Source: an uncultured Phycisphaera sp. (GTDB taxonomy: Bacteria; Planctomycetota; Phycisphaerae; Phycisphaerales; SM1A02). Taken from it: a stretch of 37,017 nt of DNA. This document shows, one piece after another, positions 31,391 to 37,017 of the stretch (position 1 is the stretch's first letter; the number at the start of each line of letters is the position of its first letter). The notes beneath the pieces are model-generated. The model was not told where the DNA came from, did no database searches, and was given only the letters and a program-made list of their open reading frames with translations. The stretch covers positions 1 through 37,017 of the forward strand of contig CALFOM010000218.1 in assembly GCA_937919685.1 (NCBI GenBank), written 5' to 3'. The translations under genes and the position numbers were made by a program.

Positions 31391-31430
31391 AGCGTCGCTT
31401 GAATCGTGATCTTCGTTTTTATTTTGAACC

Positions 31431-31436
31431 TATCCT
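31431..31436 (+). promoter_or_regulatory. Possible -10 box of the receiver-like gene
   Basis: TATCCT just after an AT-rich stretch (CGTTTTTATTTTG) and about 100 bases before the start at 31535. Confidence 0.3.
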
Positions 31437-31534
31437 TTCACACGTCTCTCGCATGTCTGCCGCAGACAGGGGCATCGTCCCAGGCCCCGGCGGTTCACCG
31501 GATTCCAGAGGCCTCAAGGTTCCAAGGAATGACC

Positions 31535-31975
31535 ATGACTGATCCCACGCCCCCACGCGATCAAATTGTCCCGACCACCGTACTCCTCGTCGGTCATTGC
31601 ACGGCCGATACCTGGATGCTTCGCACCACGCTCGGTCGGATCCTGCCTGATGCGGTGCTTCGGCCCGTCAACGACGAGACGTCCTTGAATAACCAGCTCA
31701 CGACCACGATCGGGCCGGTGGTGATGCTGGTGAACCGGTTGCTGGATGGCCGGTTTCCGCACGCGGATGGAATCCGACTTCTCGAACATCACTCGTCTTC
31801 CCCGGCGGTCGGAATGTTGATTTCGAATCTCGCCGATGCGCAGGATTCGGCACGAGGGGTCGGTGCGGTCGATGGCTTCGGAAAGACGGCTCTGAATGAC
31901 GACCAGACGGGGTTGCTCCTCCGGGAAGCGGACGAGGCGGCGCGTAAAATCCATGAGGCCGCCAGTCATTCCTAA
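31535..31975 (+). CDS. Pseudo-receiver (response-regulator-like) protein
   Basis: 146 residues. The layout matches a stand-alone CheY-like receiver: strand VPTTVLLVGH, helix, PVVMLVNRLLDG, then AVGMLISNL and DGFGKTAL. The phospho-acceptor aspartate is Asn67, and the acidic pair after strand 1 is replaced by Gly20-His21. The Ser97 and Lys117 positions are retained. Phosphorylation is therefore unlikely and it probably acts as a constitutive or ligand-gated adaptor (inference). An ATG six bases earlier (31529) touches the AAGGA ribosome site, so 31535, six bases from it, is preferred. It is convergent with the redox cassette. Confidence 0.6.
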   Translation: MTDPTPPRDQIVPTTVLLVGHCTADTWMLRTTLGRILPDAVLRPVNDETSLNNQLTTTIGPVVMLVNRLLDGRFPHADGIRLLEHHSSSPAVGMLISNLADAQDSARGVGAVDGFGKTALNDDQTGLLLREADEAARKIHEAASHS

Positions 31976-31997: not shown

Positions 31998-32972
31998 TCA
32001 CTCTGATTTGATGATCCGGCTTTCCTCTTCTGCGAATTGAGCGACGGCTTTCGTCGATGCGTCGTCGACACATCGTTGGAAGTCCTCCGTCGAGACGCAG
32101 GCTACTTTTCCGTCGACGAATTCCACGAGCAGCGGGGATTCCACGAGCCACACCGGGCCCTCGGGGAGTGCTAATTTCACGCAGTCGGCACAGTAGACGT
32201 CGTCGGGGAGGTCGCTCTCGGTGAGTTCTACGCCGTCGGCCGGAGGGACTTGGACCGCGACCACTCGGACCGGAAGACGCTCGCTGAAGAAGCCATCAAA
32301 GAGGTCGTGGCACGATCCGCAGTTCGGACGATAGAACGCGACGAGCGTGGGTTGGTCGAGCACCAGGGCGCGCAGTTGCGGCAGATACTCGAGGATCTCC
32401 GTCTCCTCGATGGGAAGTCCAACCCAACTCTCCCACAATGACGCGGTGAGGTCGTGCACCAGGTAGCGACCATCCGTGCCACGACCGCTGGCGGTCGGGA
32501 AGGGATCCACGGTCACTTCGACGTTGGCGGCGATGGCGGAACCGATGAGCAGCGCGACGATCACGCCGAATCCAGCCATGAGCGGATGACGCAGGCGCCG
32601 AGGATCGGGTTGGGCGCGGAGGAGGGTCGTCAGGGCGACAAGGCCAATCAGAATCTGCACCGCGGGCCGCACGAAGCGAGCCGATCCTTCTTCGAGGGAG
32701 ATCGACGCGGAGAGATCGGCGACGCCCGAGAAGAGAACCAGTCCGGCCACCAGAATGGCAGGCACCCGGCCTCGGCGGCCAAGGGCCAGCAGAATGCCCG
32801 CGAAGGCGGCGGCCATCCCGATCGTGATCCGCGCGCCGAAGTCGGGAACGAATCCGGATTTTATAGAGAGTCCGATGATCCAGGCGGGTATCGCGGCGTC
32901 ACCGGCGATCGCCATGGTGAAGGCTGCGGCCACGAGGAAAATGGCGAGCGAGATGCGGGCGGCATTGGTCAT
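31998..32972 (-). CDS. Membrane-anchored CxxCH thioredoxin-like protein
   Basis: 324 residues. The N-terminal half (1-150) has four or five membrane helices in a MauE/DoxX-like layout but contains no cysteine. The C-terminal half (about 178-310) is a thioredoxin-like domain with Cys218-Gly-Ser-Cys221-His after the strand TLVAFYR, a second pair Cys261-x-x-Cys264 in VYCADCVKLALPEGP, and the cis-proline Pro280 in VESPLLVEF. It shares WESWVG, LPEGP and the cysteine layout with the gene at 33758-34846 and, in part, with the lipoprotein at 33036-33608. Likely a membrane-linked disulfide oxidoreductase. CxxCH could in principle bind heme c, but the fold argues for thioredoxin. Confidence 0.68.
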   Translation of the reverse strand: MTNAARISLAIFLVAAAFTMAIAGDAAIPAWIIGLSIKSGFVPDFGARITIGMAAAFAGILLALGRRGRVPAILVAGLVLFSGVADLSASISLEEGSARFVRPAVQILIGLVALTTLLRAQPDPRRLRHPLMAGFGVIVALLIGSAIAANVEVTVDPFPTASGRGTDGRYLVHDLTASLWESWVGLPIEETEILEYLPQLRALVLDQPTLVAFYRPNCGSCHDLFDGFFSERLPVRVVAVQVPPADGVELTESDLPDDVYCADCVKLALPEGPVWLVESPLLVEFVDGKVACVSTEDFQRCVDDASTKAVAQFAEEESRIIKSE

Positions 32973-33035
32973 TCGGGCAAGATCCGGGGGTGGTCGGTCG
33001 CCTTGGTCCAGCGGCGATTTCGGGGGGGGCGGTAT

Positions 33036-33608
33036 TCACTCTGCGTTGGAGGCGATGCATGCATCCACCGAGGCGGCATCATCTGGATCGCTCGCGAAAC
33101 CAGTGATCACCCCGTCTTTCACGGCAAAAAGAGCCGGGGTCGAGATGACGTAGTCGGGGCCGCGCGGAAGTGCCTTTCGTTCCACGAGCGTACTTGGGAA
33201 TGGCATCGCGTTCGCCGGGTCGGTGTCGTCGACGAGGACGGCCACGGTCGGGGCGGGGACCGATTCGGTGAACCACTGTTCGAGCAGGTGGTGGCAGTGT
33301 TCGCAGTCCGACCGGTAGAGCATCACGAACCCTCGGCCGGTCTTCAAAGCGTCGGGAATCGGGCGGTTGATCAGCCTGGCGAGTTCTTGATCCGCGAGGG
33401 GCTTGCCGACCCATTGGTCGAAGTCCGTGAAGTAGAAGGGGTTCACCTGCGTCGGCATCTCGCCCCAGGGATCACCCGTCGTGGCGATCGTGGCAGGGCC
33501 GGTCTCTTTTTGGCCGCCGCCATCGTCCACGACGGGATCGCATCCGAGGATGAGTCCGAAGGTGGTCGAGATCATGAGGAGGACGAGAGATCGGGCGTGC
33601 GTGTTCAT
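33036..33608 (-). CDS. CxxCH thioredoxin-like lipoprotein
   Basis: 190 residues. A lipoprotein signal ends at GLILG-Cys23. The mature domain matches the C-terminal domain of the gene at 33758-34846: FDQWVGKPLADQELARLINR, then MLYRSDCEHCHHLLEQWF (Cys102, Cys105), DDTDPANAMPFP, LPRGPDYVISTPALFAV with cis-Pro158. The second CxxC of its neighbours reads Ser-Thr-Leu-Val here, so it is a one-pair, soluble, lipid-anchored form. The start at 33608 is chosen for the signal peptide; the open frame begins at 33728, inside a tandem repeat. It is likely the shuttle partner of the membrane forms (inference). Confidence 0.7.
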   Translation of the reverse strand: MNTHARSLVLLMISTTFGLILGCDPVVDDGGGQKETGPATIATTGDPWGEMPTQVNPFYFTDFDQWVGKPLADQELARLINRPIPDALKTGRGFVMLYRSDCEHCHHLLEQWFTESVPAPTVAVLVDDTDPANAMPFPSTLVERKALPRGPDYVISTPALFAVKDGVITGFASDPDDAASVDACIASNAE

Positions 33609-33724
33609 CGGGGGTTGGTATCCATCGGCGGGGTTGGTATCGAGTGCGAAACCTTCGAATCGGTCGAGTTGGTCTATAGGGAGGTGATTCTTCTGGTTGG
33701 ATTCGTGGGCGTCGCAACGCTTAA

Positions 33725-33767
33725 TCATGGCTTGTTCATGGCTTGATCATGGCTTGATCATGACTCA
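33725..33767 (-). repeat. 11-bp direct repeat across a gene end
   Basis: Three near-identical 11-base units on the plus strand (TCATGGCTTGT, TCATGGCTTGA, TCATGGCTTGA) and a diverged fourth (TCATGACTCA). The minus-strand stop codon of the upstream MauE-like gene lies in the fourth unit, and each unit holds a minus-strand ATG. The unit is not a multiple of three, so copy changes alter frame. Confidence 0.85.
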
Positions 33768-34846
33768 TCGGCCGGGGGAAGCGGGGCGGCGAGGGTGGCG
33801 ACGACCAGCGCCTGGTCTTCCGAGTTCTCGCAGACGGCAAGGACCGTGCCGCGTTCAACCGTCAGCAAGACCGGCGTGGCAATGACGTACTGAGGTCCTT
33901 CGGGAAGCGTATGCAGCGAGCATTCCTCGCACGGCATCGGCATCGCATTCGCCGGATCAATGTCGGGAATGGCGACCGCGATGGCCTTGGTATCGAGGCT
34001 GCCAAAGAAGAAATCTTCGAGCAGCGTGTGGCAGTGCTCGCAGTCGCCTCGGTAGAAGATCACGTGAAATCGATCGGTATCGATCCAGTCGGGAAGCGGC
34101 CTGGAGATCAGCCTTGCGAGCGGGTGCGAAGCGAGTGGGGTGCCCACCCAGCTTTCGAAATCAGCGACGTAGAAAGACTCGAGGGTCGTCGGCATGGTTC
34201 CCCAGCCGTCCATGGTCTGCGGCGCGGGATCGGGCGTTGTCTCCGTGGGCGCGATGGGGATGAGGGTGATCTTCGCGGCGGGCATACTGAAGGCGAGACC
34301 GAATCCGATGGCAACCGCGGCAAGAACCGACAAGAATCGGCCCGGAGGATTCGCCTCGCGGATCGGTCGAAAGAAGATCACGCCCAAGAGCAGAATGGCG
34401 TCGATCGCGAACATGCCGAGCGGCGGGGGGCTGACGGAGCCGAAGCATCCGCAACTCCCGTTCCAGATCGCGCTGATGCCGTCTCGCTGGGCGTCCATTG
34501 CCATGGTGGCGACCAGTACCGCGAGAAAGATTGTCAGGATGAAGGACGCGGCAAATCGGGCGAGCCGCGGGGCGGAGATCATGATCAGCGCGAGCATGAT
34601 TTCCACGGCGATCATCGTGCGGAGCGATGTTCCGAGCCACCAGTTGAGGTTCTCAATTCCAAAGAGCCGGGCCGAGTCGCGCACCACCAGCAGCACCGGT
34701 TCGGGAAGCAGCTTGGGATTGAGGGTGTAGAGCTTGACGCTCGCGCCAGCCAGCAGCCAGAGTGGGACGACCAGGCGGACGAGCAGGGTGCCAATCAGCG
34801 AGCCTCGGTGGGACGGAAGGTTGTCGGTCATTTGGGGACTGGGCAT
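33758..34846 (-). CDS. MauE/DoxX-like membrane protein fused to CxxCH thioredoxin
   Basis: 362 residues. Residues 15-190 have five or six membrane helices like MauE/DoxX-type redox membrane proteins, with the typical Cys132-Gly-Cys134-Phe-Gly loop. Residues about 215-355 are a thioredoxin-like domain: FESWVGTPLASHPLARLISR, FYRGDCEHCHTLLEDFF (Cys269, Cys272), IPDIDPANAMPMPCEECS (Cys306, Cys309) and YVIATPVLLTV (cis-Pro325). By analogy with MauE/VKOR-type systems the membrane part could pass electrons between quinone and the outer thiol domain; that is inference. The ATG shares a base with the gmhA stop (TGATG); Met6 (34831) is an alternative. The end lies in an 11-bp repeat. Confidence 0.72.
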   Translation of the reverse strand: MPSPQMTDNLPSHRGSLIGTLLVRLVVPLWLLAGASVKLYTLNPKLLPEPVLLVVRDSARLFGIENLNWWLGTSLRTMIAVEIMLALIMISAPRLARFAASFILTIFLAVLVATMAMDAQRDGISAIWNGSCGCFGSVSPPPLGMFAIDAILLLGVIFFRPIREANPPGRFLSVLAAVAIGFGLAFSMPAAKITLIPIAPTETTPDPAPQTMDGWGTMPTTLESFYVADFESWVGTPLASHPLARLISRPLPDWIDTDRFHVIFYRGDCEHCHTLLEDFFFGSLDTKAIAVAIPDIDPANAMPMPCEECSLHTLPEGPQYVIATPVLLTVERGTVLAVCENSEDQALVVATLAAPLPPADES

Positions 34847-35439
34847 CAGGCTTCATGTTCCGGTTCAAGCATCTCGCAGCAGGCGTGCATCAAGAATTGA
34901 TGGACTTCCTGAATCGTGGCGGAGTCATCGCCTGGGATCACCACGGCGGCGCGACATCCGGACTTCGCCTTGCCGCCGTCTCCACCGAGGAAGCCGATGG
35001 TCGTGGCCCCCTTGCGGTTGGCGACCTCAAGGGCGGCGAGGATATTGGGGCTTCGCCCGGAGGTCGAGAAGACCACCAGTGCATCCTGGTCCGTGAGCAT
35101 CGCCTCGCACTGTCGACTGAAAATCGACTCGAAGCCGTAATCATTGGCGATGCAGGTGATGGCGGTCGGGTCTGCGTTGAGGCAGGCGCTTCGGATCGGG
35201 GCACGATCGGCCCGAAACCGCCCGACGAGTTCTTCGGCAAAGTGCAACGCTTCGGCCGCGGAGCCACCGTTGCCGCAGGTGTAGATGGTCCCGCCGGAAG
35301 CAATGGTGTCTCGGACCGCCTTCAGGACCTTGACGGCACCGTCGGTCTCAGCCTCCAGGGCGTCAAGGGCGGCATCGAGCTTCTGGCGGCGACCCGTCAA
35401 CAGCGTGCGGATCAGATTTTCGGAAGACGTGGCAGGCAT
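34846..35439 (-). CDS. gmhA: Sedoheptulose-7-phosphate isomerase (SIS domain)
   Basis: 197 residues, cytoplasmic SIS-fold enzyme of the GmhA family, which isomerises D-sedoheptulose 7-phosphate to D-glycero-D-manno-heptose 7-phosphate, first step towards ADP- or GDP-heptose for surface glycans. Seen are TCGNGGSAAEALHFAEELVG with the substrate-binding Ser and catalytic Glu, FSTSGRSPNI, and QEVHQFLMHACCE with the conserved histidines. A TACCAT box lies six bases upstream of the ATG. It is the first gene of the minus-strand run leading into the redox cassette, although no functional link to it is evident. The related DiaA is less likely, as GmhA residues are conserved. Confidence 0.88.
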   Translation of the reverse strand: MPATSSENLIRTLLTGRRQKLDAALDALEAETDGAVKVLKAVRDTIASGGTIYTCGNGGSAAEALHFAEELVGRFRADRAPIRSACLNADPTAITCIANDYGFESIFSRQCEAMLTDQDALVVFSTSGRSPNILAALEVANRKGATTIGFLGGDGGKAKSGCRAAVVIPGDDSATIQEVHQFLMHACCEMLEPEHEA

Positions 35440-35451: not shown

Positions 35452-35554
35452 GGTCCTCGAGGGCGATCTGGGGCCGGCCGAAGCCTCGAGATGACGTTTC
35501 CTGAGACACTGCGTCCAATCACCGGCCGGTGGCGAACCGGTATCAGTGCATCTG

Positions 35555-37017
35555 ATGGCAACCGCCTACACCCGCATTCAACTGGAAGACAGAACCAAGA
35601 TGTCCGATTTTCCGATCCATGCCAGCGCCGGTGGCAGCCGAACCTTCACGCATCAGAGCGAGATGCCGGTTCCCCATTCGGCGCTCGCCGACTGGCACTT
35701 CCGTTGCGGTGCCCTCGATCGCCTTCTGCCGCCGTGGCAGGATGTTCGGGTGATCGAAGACTCTGGTCCACTTCGAGCGGGCGCGGAAACGGTGCTCTCC
35801 GTGCCACTCGCCCCCGGGATTCGGAAACGATGGCACGCCCGGATCGAAGAGGCGATTCCCGGTGAACGATTCGTGGATGCGCAGGTCACGGGCCCGTTCG
35901 CCGCATGGCGGCATCAACATTCCTTTCTCGAAAGCGCCGACGCCGGTTCAAGTTGTCTTCGCGACGCCATTGAATATCGCATTCCCTTCGGACCACTGGG
36001 CGCTTTGGGGGCGGGTTACATTCGGAAGGATCTGGAGCGGCTTTTCCGATACCGACATTTTCGGACCGCGAGTGATCTGCGGCGGCATGCCGAAGAAGGC
36101 CCGGGCCGATCGCTCACCGTGGTGATTTCCGGCGCCAGCGGTTTGGTCGGCACGCAGTTGACGGCGTTTTTGGAAACCGGCGGTCATGTGGTTCGACGAT
36201 TGGTCCGTCGGACACCGGATGCGACTCGCGGCGAGTATCGCTGGAATCCCGACTCGGGAGAAATCGACTCGGCGGTGTTCGAGGGCGCCGACGCGGTCGT
36301 GCATCTGGCCGGCGCAGGCATCGCGGATCGACGTTGGTCCGACCAACGAATGAAACTGATTCGCGAATCACGGACCATCGGTACGCGGGTGATCGCCGAA
36401 GCCATGGCAGCGTGTTCGTCGCCGCCTTCGGTGTTCGTTTCCGCCAGTGCGGTGGGCTATTACGGGGATCGCACCGAGCAGGTTGATGACGCGTCGCCCG
36501 CCGGCGAGGGGTTTCTCGCGGACGTCTCGACGGCTTGGGAGCGCGCGGCGGATCCGGCGCGGGCCGCCGGCATTCGGGTCGTTCATCCACGGATCGGCAT
36601 CGTGCTCACCCCCAAGGGTGGTGCGTTGGGCAAGATGTTGCTCCCCTTCAAGTTGGGTGCCGGGGGCCCGATCGGATCCGGGCGTCAGGGGATGAGTTGG
36701 ATCGGCATGGACGATCTGATCGGCGTGTTGCACCGGGTGATGGTCGATGATCAATTCGAAGGTGGTCTGAATGCGACGGCGCCCGAGCCAGTGTCGCAAC
36801 GGACGTTCGCGAAGACCCTGGGCGCCGTCTTGCATCGACCCGCATTCGCACCGATGCCCGCCTTCGCCGCGAAAATTCTCCTGGGTCGGATGGCGGGGCC
36901 GTTGCTCCTTCAAGGCGTCGAGGCAATTCCATCAACCTTGAATGATCGCGGCTTTCGTTTCGAGGCATCGAATCTCGAAACCTGTCTTCGTCTCTTGCTT
37001 GATGGAACGCCACCGTC
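35555..37017 (+). CDS. SRPBCC-epimerase fusion, TIGR01777/YfcH type (partial)
   Basis: About 487 codons in frame with no stop; the gene runs off the right edge but seems nearly complete. Residues about 15-180 are an SRPBCC-like (START-fold, hydrophobic ligand) domain with WHFRCGALDRLLPPW and FRYRHFRTASDL at its end. From about 188 a short-chain dehydrogenase/epimerase domain follows: VVISGASGLVGTQL (Rossmann GxxGxxG), HLAGAGIADRRW, SASAVGYYGDR with the YYG of this family, and HPRIGIVLTPKGGALGKML. TIGR01777 proteins are widespread and poorly characterised; some are linked to cell division or chloroplast biology (SulA-like). The start may be 35555 or 35600, both in frame. Confidence 0.88.
   Translation, partial: MATAYTRIQLEDRTKMSDFPIHASAGGSRTFTHQSEMPVPHSALADWHFRCGALDRLLPPWQDVRVIEDSGPLRAGAETVLSVPLAPGIRKRWHARIEEAIPGERFVDAQVTGPFAAWRHQHSFLESADAGSSCLRDAIEYRIPFGPLGALGAGYIRKDLERLFRYRHFRTASDLRRHAEEGPGRSLTVVISGASGLVGTQLTAFLETGGHVVRRLVRRTPDATRGEYRWNPDSGEIDSAVFEGADAVVHLAGAGIADRRWSDQRMKLIRESRTIGTRVIAEAMAACSSPPSVFVSASAVGYYGDRTEQVDDASPAGEGFLADVSTAWERAADPARAAGIRVVHPRIGIVLTPKGGALGKMLLPFKLGAGGPIGSGRQGMSWIGMDDLIGVLHRVMVDDQFEGGLNATAPEPVSQRTFAKTLGAVLHRPAFAPMPAFAAKILLGRMAGPLLLQGVEAIPSTLNDRGFRFEASNLETCLRLLLDGTPP

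Follow-up and report, generated by a model that had tools for sequence, protein, structure and literature searches.

The minus strand of the window (the whole stretch of DNA analysed here: 37,017 nucleotides of contig CALFOM010000218.1, GenBank assembly GCA_937919685.1, from an uncultured Phycisphaera sp.) encodes a MauE-type membrane module fused to a thioredoxin-fold domain (gene A, 362 aa, positions 33758..34846) together with a full-length paralogue of this fusion whose membrane module has degenerated (gene C, 324 aa, 31998..32972), and the conserved A+C pairing is new, as a variant and not as a new category. MauE, MauE/MauD pairs and membrane redox modules with an attached thioredoxin (Trx) domain are kinds already known, and because of the MauE/MauD precedent we class the system as a variant; a search of open-licence papers returned no description of an active MauE-Trx fusion paired with a full-length, membrane-silent paralogue. 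To our knowledge, MauE has been tied to disulfide formation for decades and its mechanism has never been proven. The fusion and its paralogue point to residues worth testing (K38, E82, CGC and D149 of A); C, which has lost A's invariant membrane residues K38, CGC and D149, is a built-in inactive control; and A/C is a candidate disulfide pathway for Planctomycetes without VKOR, DsbA or a complete DsbB.

Organisation of the locus

Gene A was assigned from its open reading frame (ORF), its MauE match and its AF2 model, and gene C from its ORF, profile alignment with hhalign, its AF2 model and its residue losses. Between them on the same strand lies gene B (most likely 33036..33608), a Trx-fold lipoprotein recognised by its ORF and lipobox. 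The upstream neighbour of A is a gene for a SIS-domain (GmhA-like) isomerase (34846..35439, minus strand; SIS_2 E-value 1.1e-23), the stop codon of which overlaps the start of A (TGATG). A preliminary description of this DNA had proposed three adjoining minus-strand genes with one common outer domain; the ORFs are found there, and all pairwise sequence comparisons were significant (A against B: 48% identity over 153 aa, E-value 8e-47; A against C: 30% over 204 aa, 3e-16; B against C: 27% over 122 aa, 1e-10). On these alignments the outer domain common to A, B and C is truly homologous, and coincidence of motifs is ruled out. Further points of that description also held, namely a second CxxC in A (CEEC) and C (CADC) that B lacks, a third copy (B) in the form of a free lipoprotein with its lipobox at C63, and a CxxCH that is no c-type haem site, the His following the CxxC being present in only 50/98 first Trx domains of A proteins and 38/56 of C. 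Haem attachment at CxxCH was accordingly rejected, since this His is not conserved and the CxxC sits at the Trx active-site position.

The MauE-thioredoxin fusion

The membrane module of A (aa 13-193; 34268..34810, minus strand) has five transmembrane (TM) helices in the AF2 model (pLDDT 88.3, pTM 0.81). Pfam MauE (PF07291) matched the window's A weakly (E-value 1.4e-3, under the curated cut-off) and 28 of the 29 aligned A proteins with E-values ≤ 0.01 (best 2.9e-11), which upholds the MauE relationship suggested earlier. Standalone MauE proteins of sister families reach about 1e-25 against the same Pfam family and have in common with A a Lys in helix 1, a Glu in helix 2 and the CGCF sequence. 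Four features of the module, K38, E82, the CGC at 132-134 and D149, are invariant in 99/99 A modules; these A loci were selected without regard to CGC, and all features of C were likewise unselected. The CGC motif (34445..34453, minus strand) falls in the TM3-TM4 loop. By helix count and the positive-inside rule, it and the Trx domain are both predicted to be on the outer side of the membrane, while Arg-rich turns face the other way.

In addition to C132 and C134 (the CGC, within CGCFG), A has cysteines at 269/272 (the active-site CxxC, CEHC; 34031..34042, minus strand), 306/309 (the second CxxC, CEEC; 33920..33931, minus strand) and 339. The second CxxC is present in 41/43 single-Trx A proteins paired with C, and in single-Trx A proteins without C its two cysteines are kept in 30/44 and 38/44, respectively; since CxxC was part of the pattern used in the scan, its counts for A in the scanned loci are subject to partial selection. 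No conserved Cys pair was found inside the membrane helices in the A alignment. A through-membrane path of the DsbD/CcdA type needs a Cys pair within the helices, so its absence from A favours the oxidase direction. DsbD/CcdA does resemble A in having a membrane module with an outer Trx domain, but A belongs to a different family without that conserved pair, and DsbD is encoded elsewhere in the genome. Pfam scans of the A and C families gave no VKOR or DsbB domain.

The outer domain of A (aa 214-355; 33782..34207, minus strand) matched ResA, CcmG, TlpA and DsbE-like chains by Foldseek (best E-value 4.3e-3) and ResA, CcmG and TlpA by VIA, with a Z score of 9.0 against CcmG (3kh7; rmsd 4.4, 131 aligned residues). 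Models of both A and C match Trx proteins of the CcmG/ResA/TlpA/DsbE type, in agreement with the Trx fold first proposed for the outer domain. All Trx domains carry CxxC, and a later Pro at the cis-Pro place occurs in 174/174; by CxxC, this Pro and the predicted models, the outer domains are of the Trx-fold oxidoreductase type (TlpA/ResA/CcmG-like). A PDB sequence search with A alone gave no match; in PDB profile searches, apart from a few chance hits, only the CxxC region matched, locally, and the matching chains were PDI-like. In a viral structure library just generic thioredoxins and one MauE-domain protein matched, all weakly. Pfam matches to EndA_linker, Sugar_tr and NnrS were discarded as chance, being under cut-off or confined to single members.

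Among known membrane proteins, the NCBIfam family BT_3928 (NF045576, 358 positions) matches the membrane module of some relatives over its first 160 positions, but the match is limited to those positions and attains at best 29.5 bits against a cut-off of 250. By structure, NACHO (TMEM35A; 9h9e_B) aligns with the membrane module of A at a Z score of 8.5 (rmsd 3.9, 127 aligned) and with that of C at 8.0, and DoxX is a further Pfam match of the MauE proteins from sister families. This NACHO/DoxX helical-bundle likeness is only suggestive, as the Z scores fall in a range where a common arrangement of helices may suffice and with which other membrane folds are compatible. A search of open-licence papers found none that dealt with BT_3928 or with MauE in connection with DoxX and thioredoxin. 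At two sister-family loci (L074:6238-7509 and L075:5910-7133), a CGC-bearing MauE module is linked to DUF1573/HYDIN-like domains, not to Trx.

A paralogue with a degenerated membrane module

Alignment of C with the A profile by hhalign (E-value 3.9e-43) extends over 303 columns and includes the membrane part, from which it follows that C is a full-length paralogue of A; the Pfam scan of the C family gave no membrane-module match, and the AF2 model of C has a pLDDT of 79.5. The preliminary description had seen two different membrane modules in A and C. They are instead homologous over their whole length and constitute one family, with that of C degenerated: K38, C132, C134 and D149 are each retained in 0/55 C modules, and E82 in 21/55. 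No cysteine was found in the membrane part of the window's C, as had been stated earlier, but the statement does not extend to other C proteins, which carry 0-5 scattered, non-conserved membrane cysteines.

All six outer-domain cysteines of C are kept in 56/56 proteins, most of which share only about 24-34% identity with the C of the window. They form the active-site CxxC (CGSC, 218/221; 32310..32321), the second CxxC (CADC, 261/264; 32181..32192) and a third invariant pair (C292 and C301; 32070..32099), all on the minus strand, the last of these being additional to the pairs noticed before. These patterns of conservation suggest an active membrane unit in A and a redox-silent twin of it in C; without K38, CGC and D149, the membrane part of C probably does not exchange electrons with the membrane.

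Distribution and gene neighbourhood

Gene A is present in 44/49 genomes of the window's family (own genus included), mostly as a single locus, and is rare in the order's remaining families. Scanning 84,980 species genomes returned 141 relatives; most are Phycisphaerales-type metagenome-assembled genomes (MAGs), and a few are Acidobacteria or Thermoanaerobaculia. Organism names follow the records, and some of them look wrongly assigned. In a sample of the phylum the A profile matched 69/392 genomes, and full-length MauE-Trx proteins from other families were among the matches; strong C matches (E < 1e-60) in this sample were confined to the window's family. C lies directly downstream of A, in many cases overlapping it, in 52/99 distinct A loci, almost all of them Phycisphaerales, so that the neighbourhood is conserved among relatives. 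MauE-Trx fusions without C occur in other Planctomycetota and some Acidobacteria. The three-part layout, taken earlier for the system itself, was not borne out as the conserved unit, which is A+C; A alone is more widespread, and a separate B is mostly a genus-level feature.

Gene order around A is broadly kept within the family. The SIS isomerase gene is directly upstream of A in 46/99 loci, and at most C-bearing loci the flanking genes are TilS and one of the TIGR01777 type; these conserved neighbours (SIS isomerase, TilS, TIGR01777 protein and an M20 peptidase) gave no hint of a substrate. In the window, the TIGR01777 epimerase-like protein (35546-37015, plus strand) has an N-terminal polyketide-cyclase-like (SRPBCC) domain, and a 189-aa protein with no Pfam match (31406-31975, plus strand) holds its place between TilS and C within the genus.

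Genomic background of disulfide chemistry

Domain searches found no VKOR in genomes of the window's genus and no DsbA above cut-off in the window's own genome. The DsbB-like protein of the genus has a CPLC but lacks the other periplasmic Cys pair, the second one, that canonical DsbB has; in the own genome it is encoded on contig C134 (L169:7412-8167, minus strand), and it is conserved in the genus. DsbD_TM was detected in 77/81 genomes, the own genome included, and a reductive supply therefore exists. Within the family, a complementarity of A with VKOR/DsbB is suggestive: both VKOR and DsbB are absent from 18/44 A-bearing genomes, and all five genomes without A carry one or the other. The association is not significant (Fisher's exact test, p 0.14) and is weakened by incomplete MAGs, and many A-bearing genomes also retain VKOR or DsbB. 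The methylamine dehydrogenase small subunit (PF02975) was above cut-off in 0/81 genomes; identity with a Mau cluster was thus ruled out.

Proposed mechanism and alternatives

We tentatively favour, with slightly less than even confidence, an extracytoplasmic thiol-oxidising relay in which MauE takes the place of VKOR/DsbB, and for which we infer direction, acceptor, contact between A and C, and substrates. A and C probably help to make or rearrange protein disulfide bonds. A would be a self-contained extracytoplasmic thiol-redox enzyme, whose MauE module, with CGC in the outer TM3-TM4 loop and the charged K38, E82 and D149 in or beside the helices, passes electrons to or from the Trx domain tethered to it. 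Electrons would likely pass from substrate thiols to the active CxxC, the second CxxC, the CGC and finally a membrane acceptor, e.g. quinone; we know of no proven electron acceptor of MauE. A would in this way do the job that VKOR or DsbB and a DsbA-like protein do elsewhere. C, a paralogue presumably kept in the same transcription unit, with the three invariant Cys pairs of its Trx domain intact, would most likely serve as a membrane-held partner oxidoreductase that A oxidises in trans or that rearranges disulfides, perhaps as part of an A-C heteromer, while B would be a lipoprotein copy adding reach. The membrane electron relay with a soluble shuttle that was first proposed for this locus is plausible. 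We consider unlikely a more far-reaching version, by which part of the Phycisphaerales would make disulfides mainly through an obligate MauE-thioredoxin heteromer of active A and inactive C in place of VKOR/DsbB-DsbA, A passing electrons to the membrane and C being a redox-silent anchor with a three-disulfide Trx domain that oxidises or isomerises clients.

Comparison with known systems places this relay next to MauE and MauD of the mau cluster, which share the K...E...CGCFG membrane module, a Trx-like partner and a presumed disulfide function. In A, by contrast, Trx is fused to MauE and looks TlpA/ResA-like, and here the paralogue C lacks CGC and there is no methylamine dehydrogenase. A passage of PMC7794033, citing van der Palen 1997, gives MauE a presumed (speculated) role in disulfide formation. 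The DsbB/DsbA system and VKOR-Trx/DsbA fusions offer a functional analogy in that a membrane Cys pair works with a Trx-fold partner, although the membrane module of A is MauE and VKOR is absent from the window's genus.

ResA, CcmG and TlpA work mostly as reductants, and the nearness in fold of the A Trx domains to these proteins speaks against the oxidative reading, as do the near-universal DsbD_TM and the VKOR or DsbB that many A-bearing genomes retain. Because the Trx fold is of this ResA/TlpA kind, we also consider a reductive or isomerising alternative, which we hold to be somewhat unlikely: A, B and C would be a branch in which DsbD reduces the TlpA/ResA-like Trx domains. These domains would rearrange disulfides or hold particular cysteines (those of cytochrome c or copper sites) in the reduced state, and the MauE module would be a platform for binding or sensing. 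The nearest folds (ResA, CcmG, TlpA, DsbE), the near-universal DsbD_TM, the own genome without DsbA and the retention by C of Trx cysteines without a redox membrane motif are all consistent with such a branch, yet it leaves the invariance of CGC, K38, E82 and D149 in 99 A proteins unexplained, and no cytochrome or copper biogenesis gene recurs beside A loci.

It is unlikely that A and C form disulfides in one specific client encoded elsewhere, as MauE/MauD would for methylamine dehydrogenase. Such dedicated maturation would follow the MauE precedent in the passage of PMC7794033 and fit both the single A locus of most relatives and one sister-family standalone MauE that also matches HvfX, a RiPP maturation family, but no client gene is conserved beside A across loci, and the 0/81 count for the methylamine dehydrogenase small subunit likewise counts against it. 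That C is a decaying, roleless duplicate, staying beside A merely through slow change of a gene order that is broadly conserved in the family, would agree with its lost membrane motif but is highly improbable given six outer-domain cysteines in 56/56 proteins despite identities to the window's C of mostly about 24-34%, and a position still directly downstream of A in 52 loci.

Gene B and additional thioredoxin domains

The mechanical ORF of B (33036-33728) comprises 230 aa, in the numbering of which its cysteines are 142/145 (CEHC; 33294-33305) and the lipobox C63 (33540-33542). Its start is most likely the internal ATG at 33608 (MNTHARSLVLLMISTTFGLILGC, LILGC lipobox), giving 190 aa, which is the length of the B ORF of a relative (L032); the longer version extends upstream into a tandem repeat of 11 bp at 33719-33762. 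This repeat, of four copies (GCTTGATCATG), lies between A and B and overlaps the A stop codon.

Two independent cases elsewhere aside, a separate B gene is confined to the window's genus and its near relatives, and 11/99 A loci have two tandem Trx domains on A. In a tree of Trx domains, the B proteins of the genus form their own clade (100/100), unresolved in position and apart from the tandem clades. Origin of B by splitting off the second domain of a tandem is therefore unsupported, and extra Trx domains were gained several times, in many cases in tandem on A. Outside the C-bearing clade, MauE and Trx are two separate genes at L070:6411-7585, the Trx protein having a lipoprotein-like start, and at L057:97-2363 an extra Trx lipoprotein adjoins a MauE-Trx fusion.
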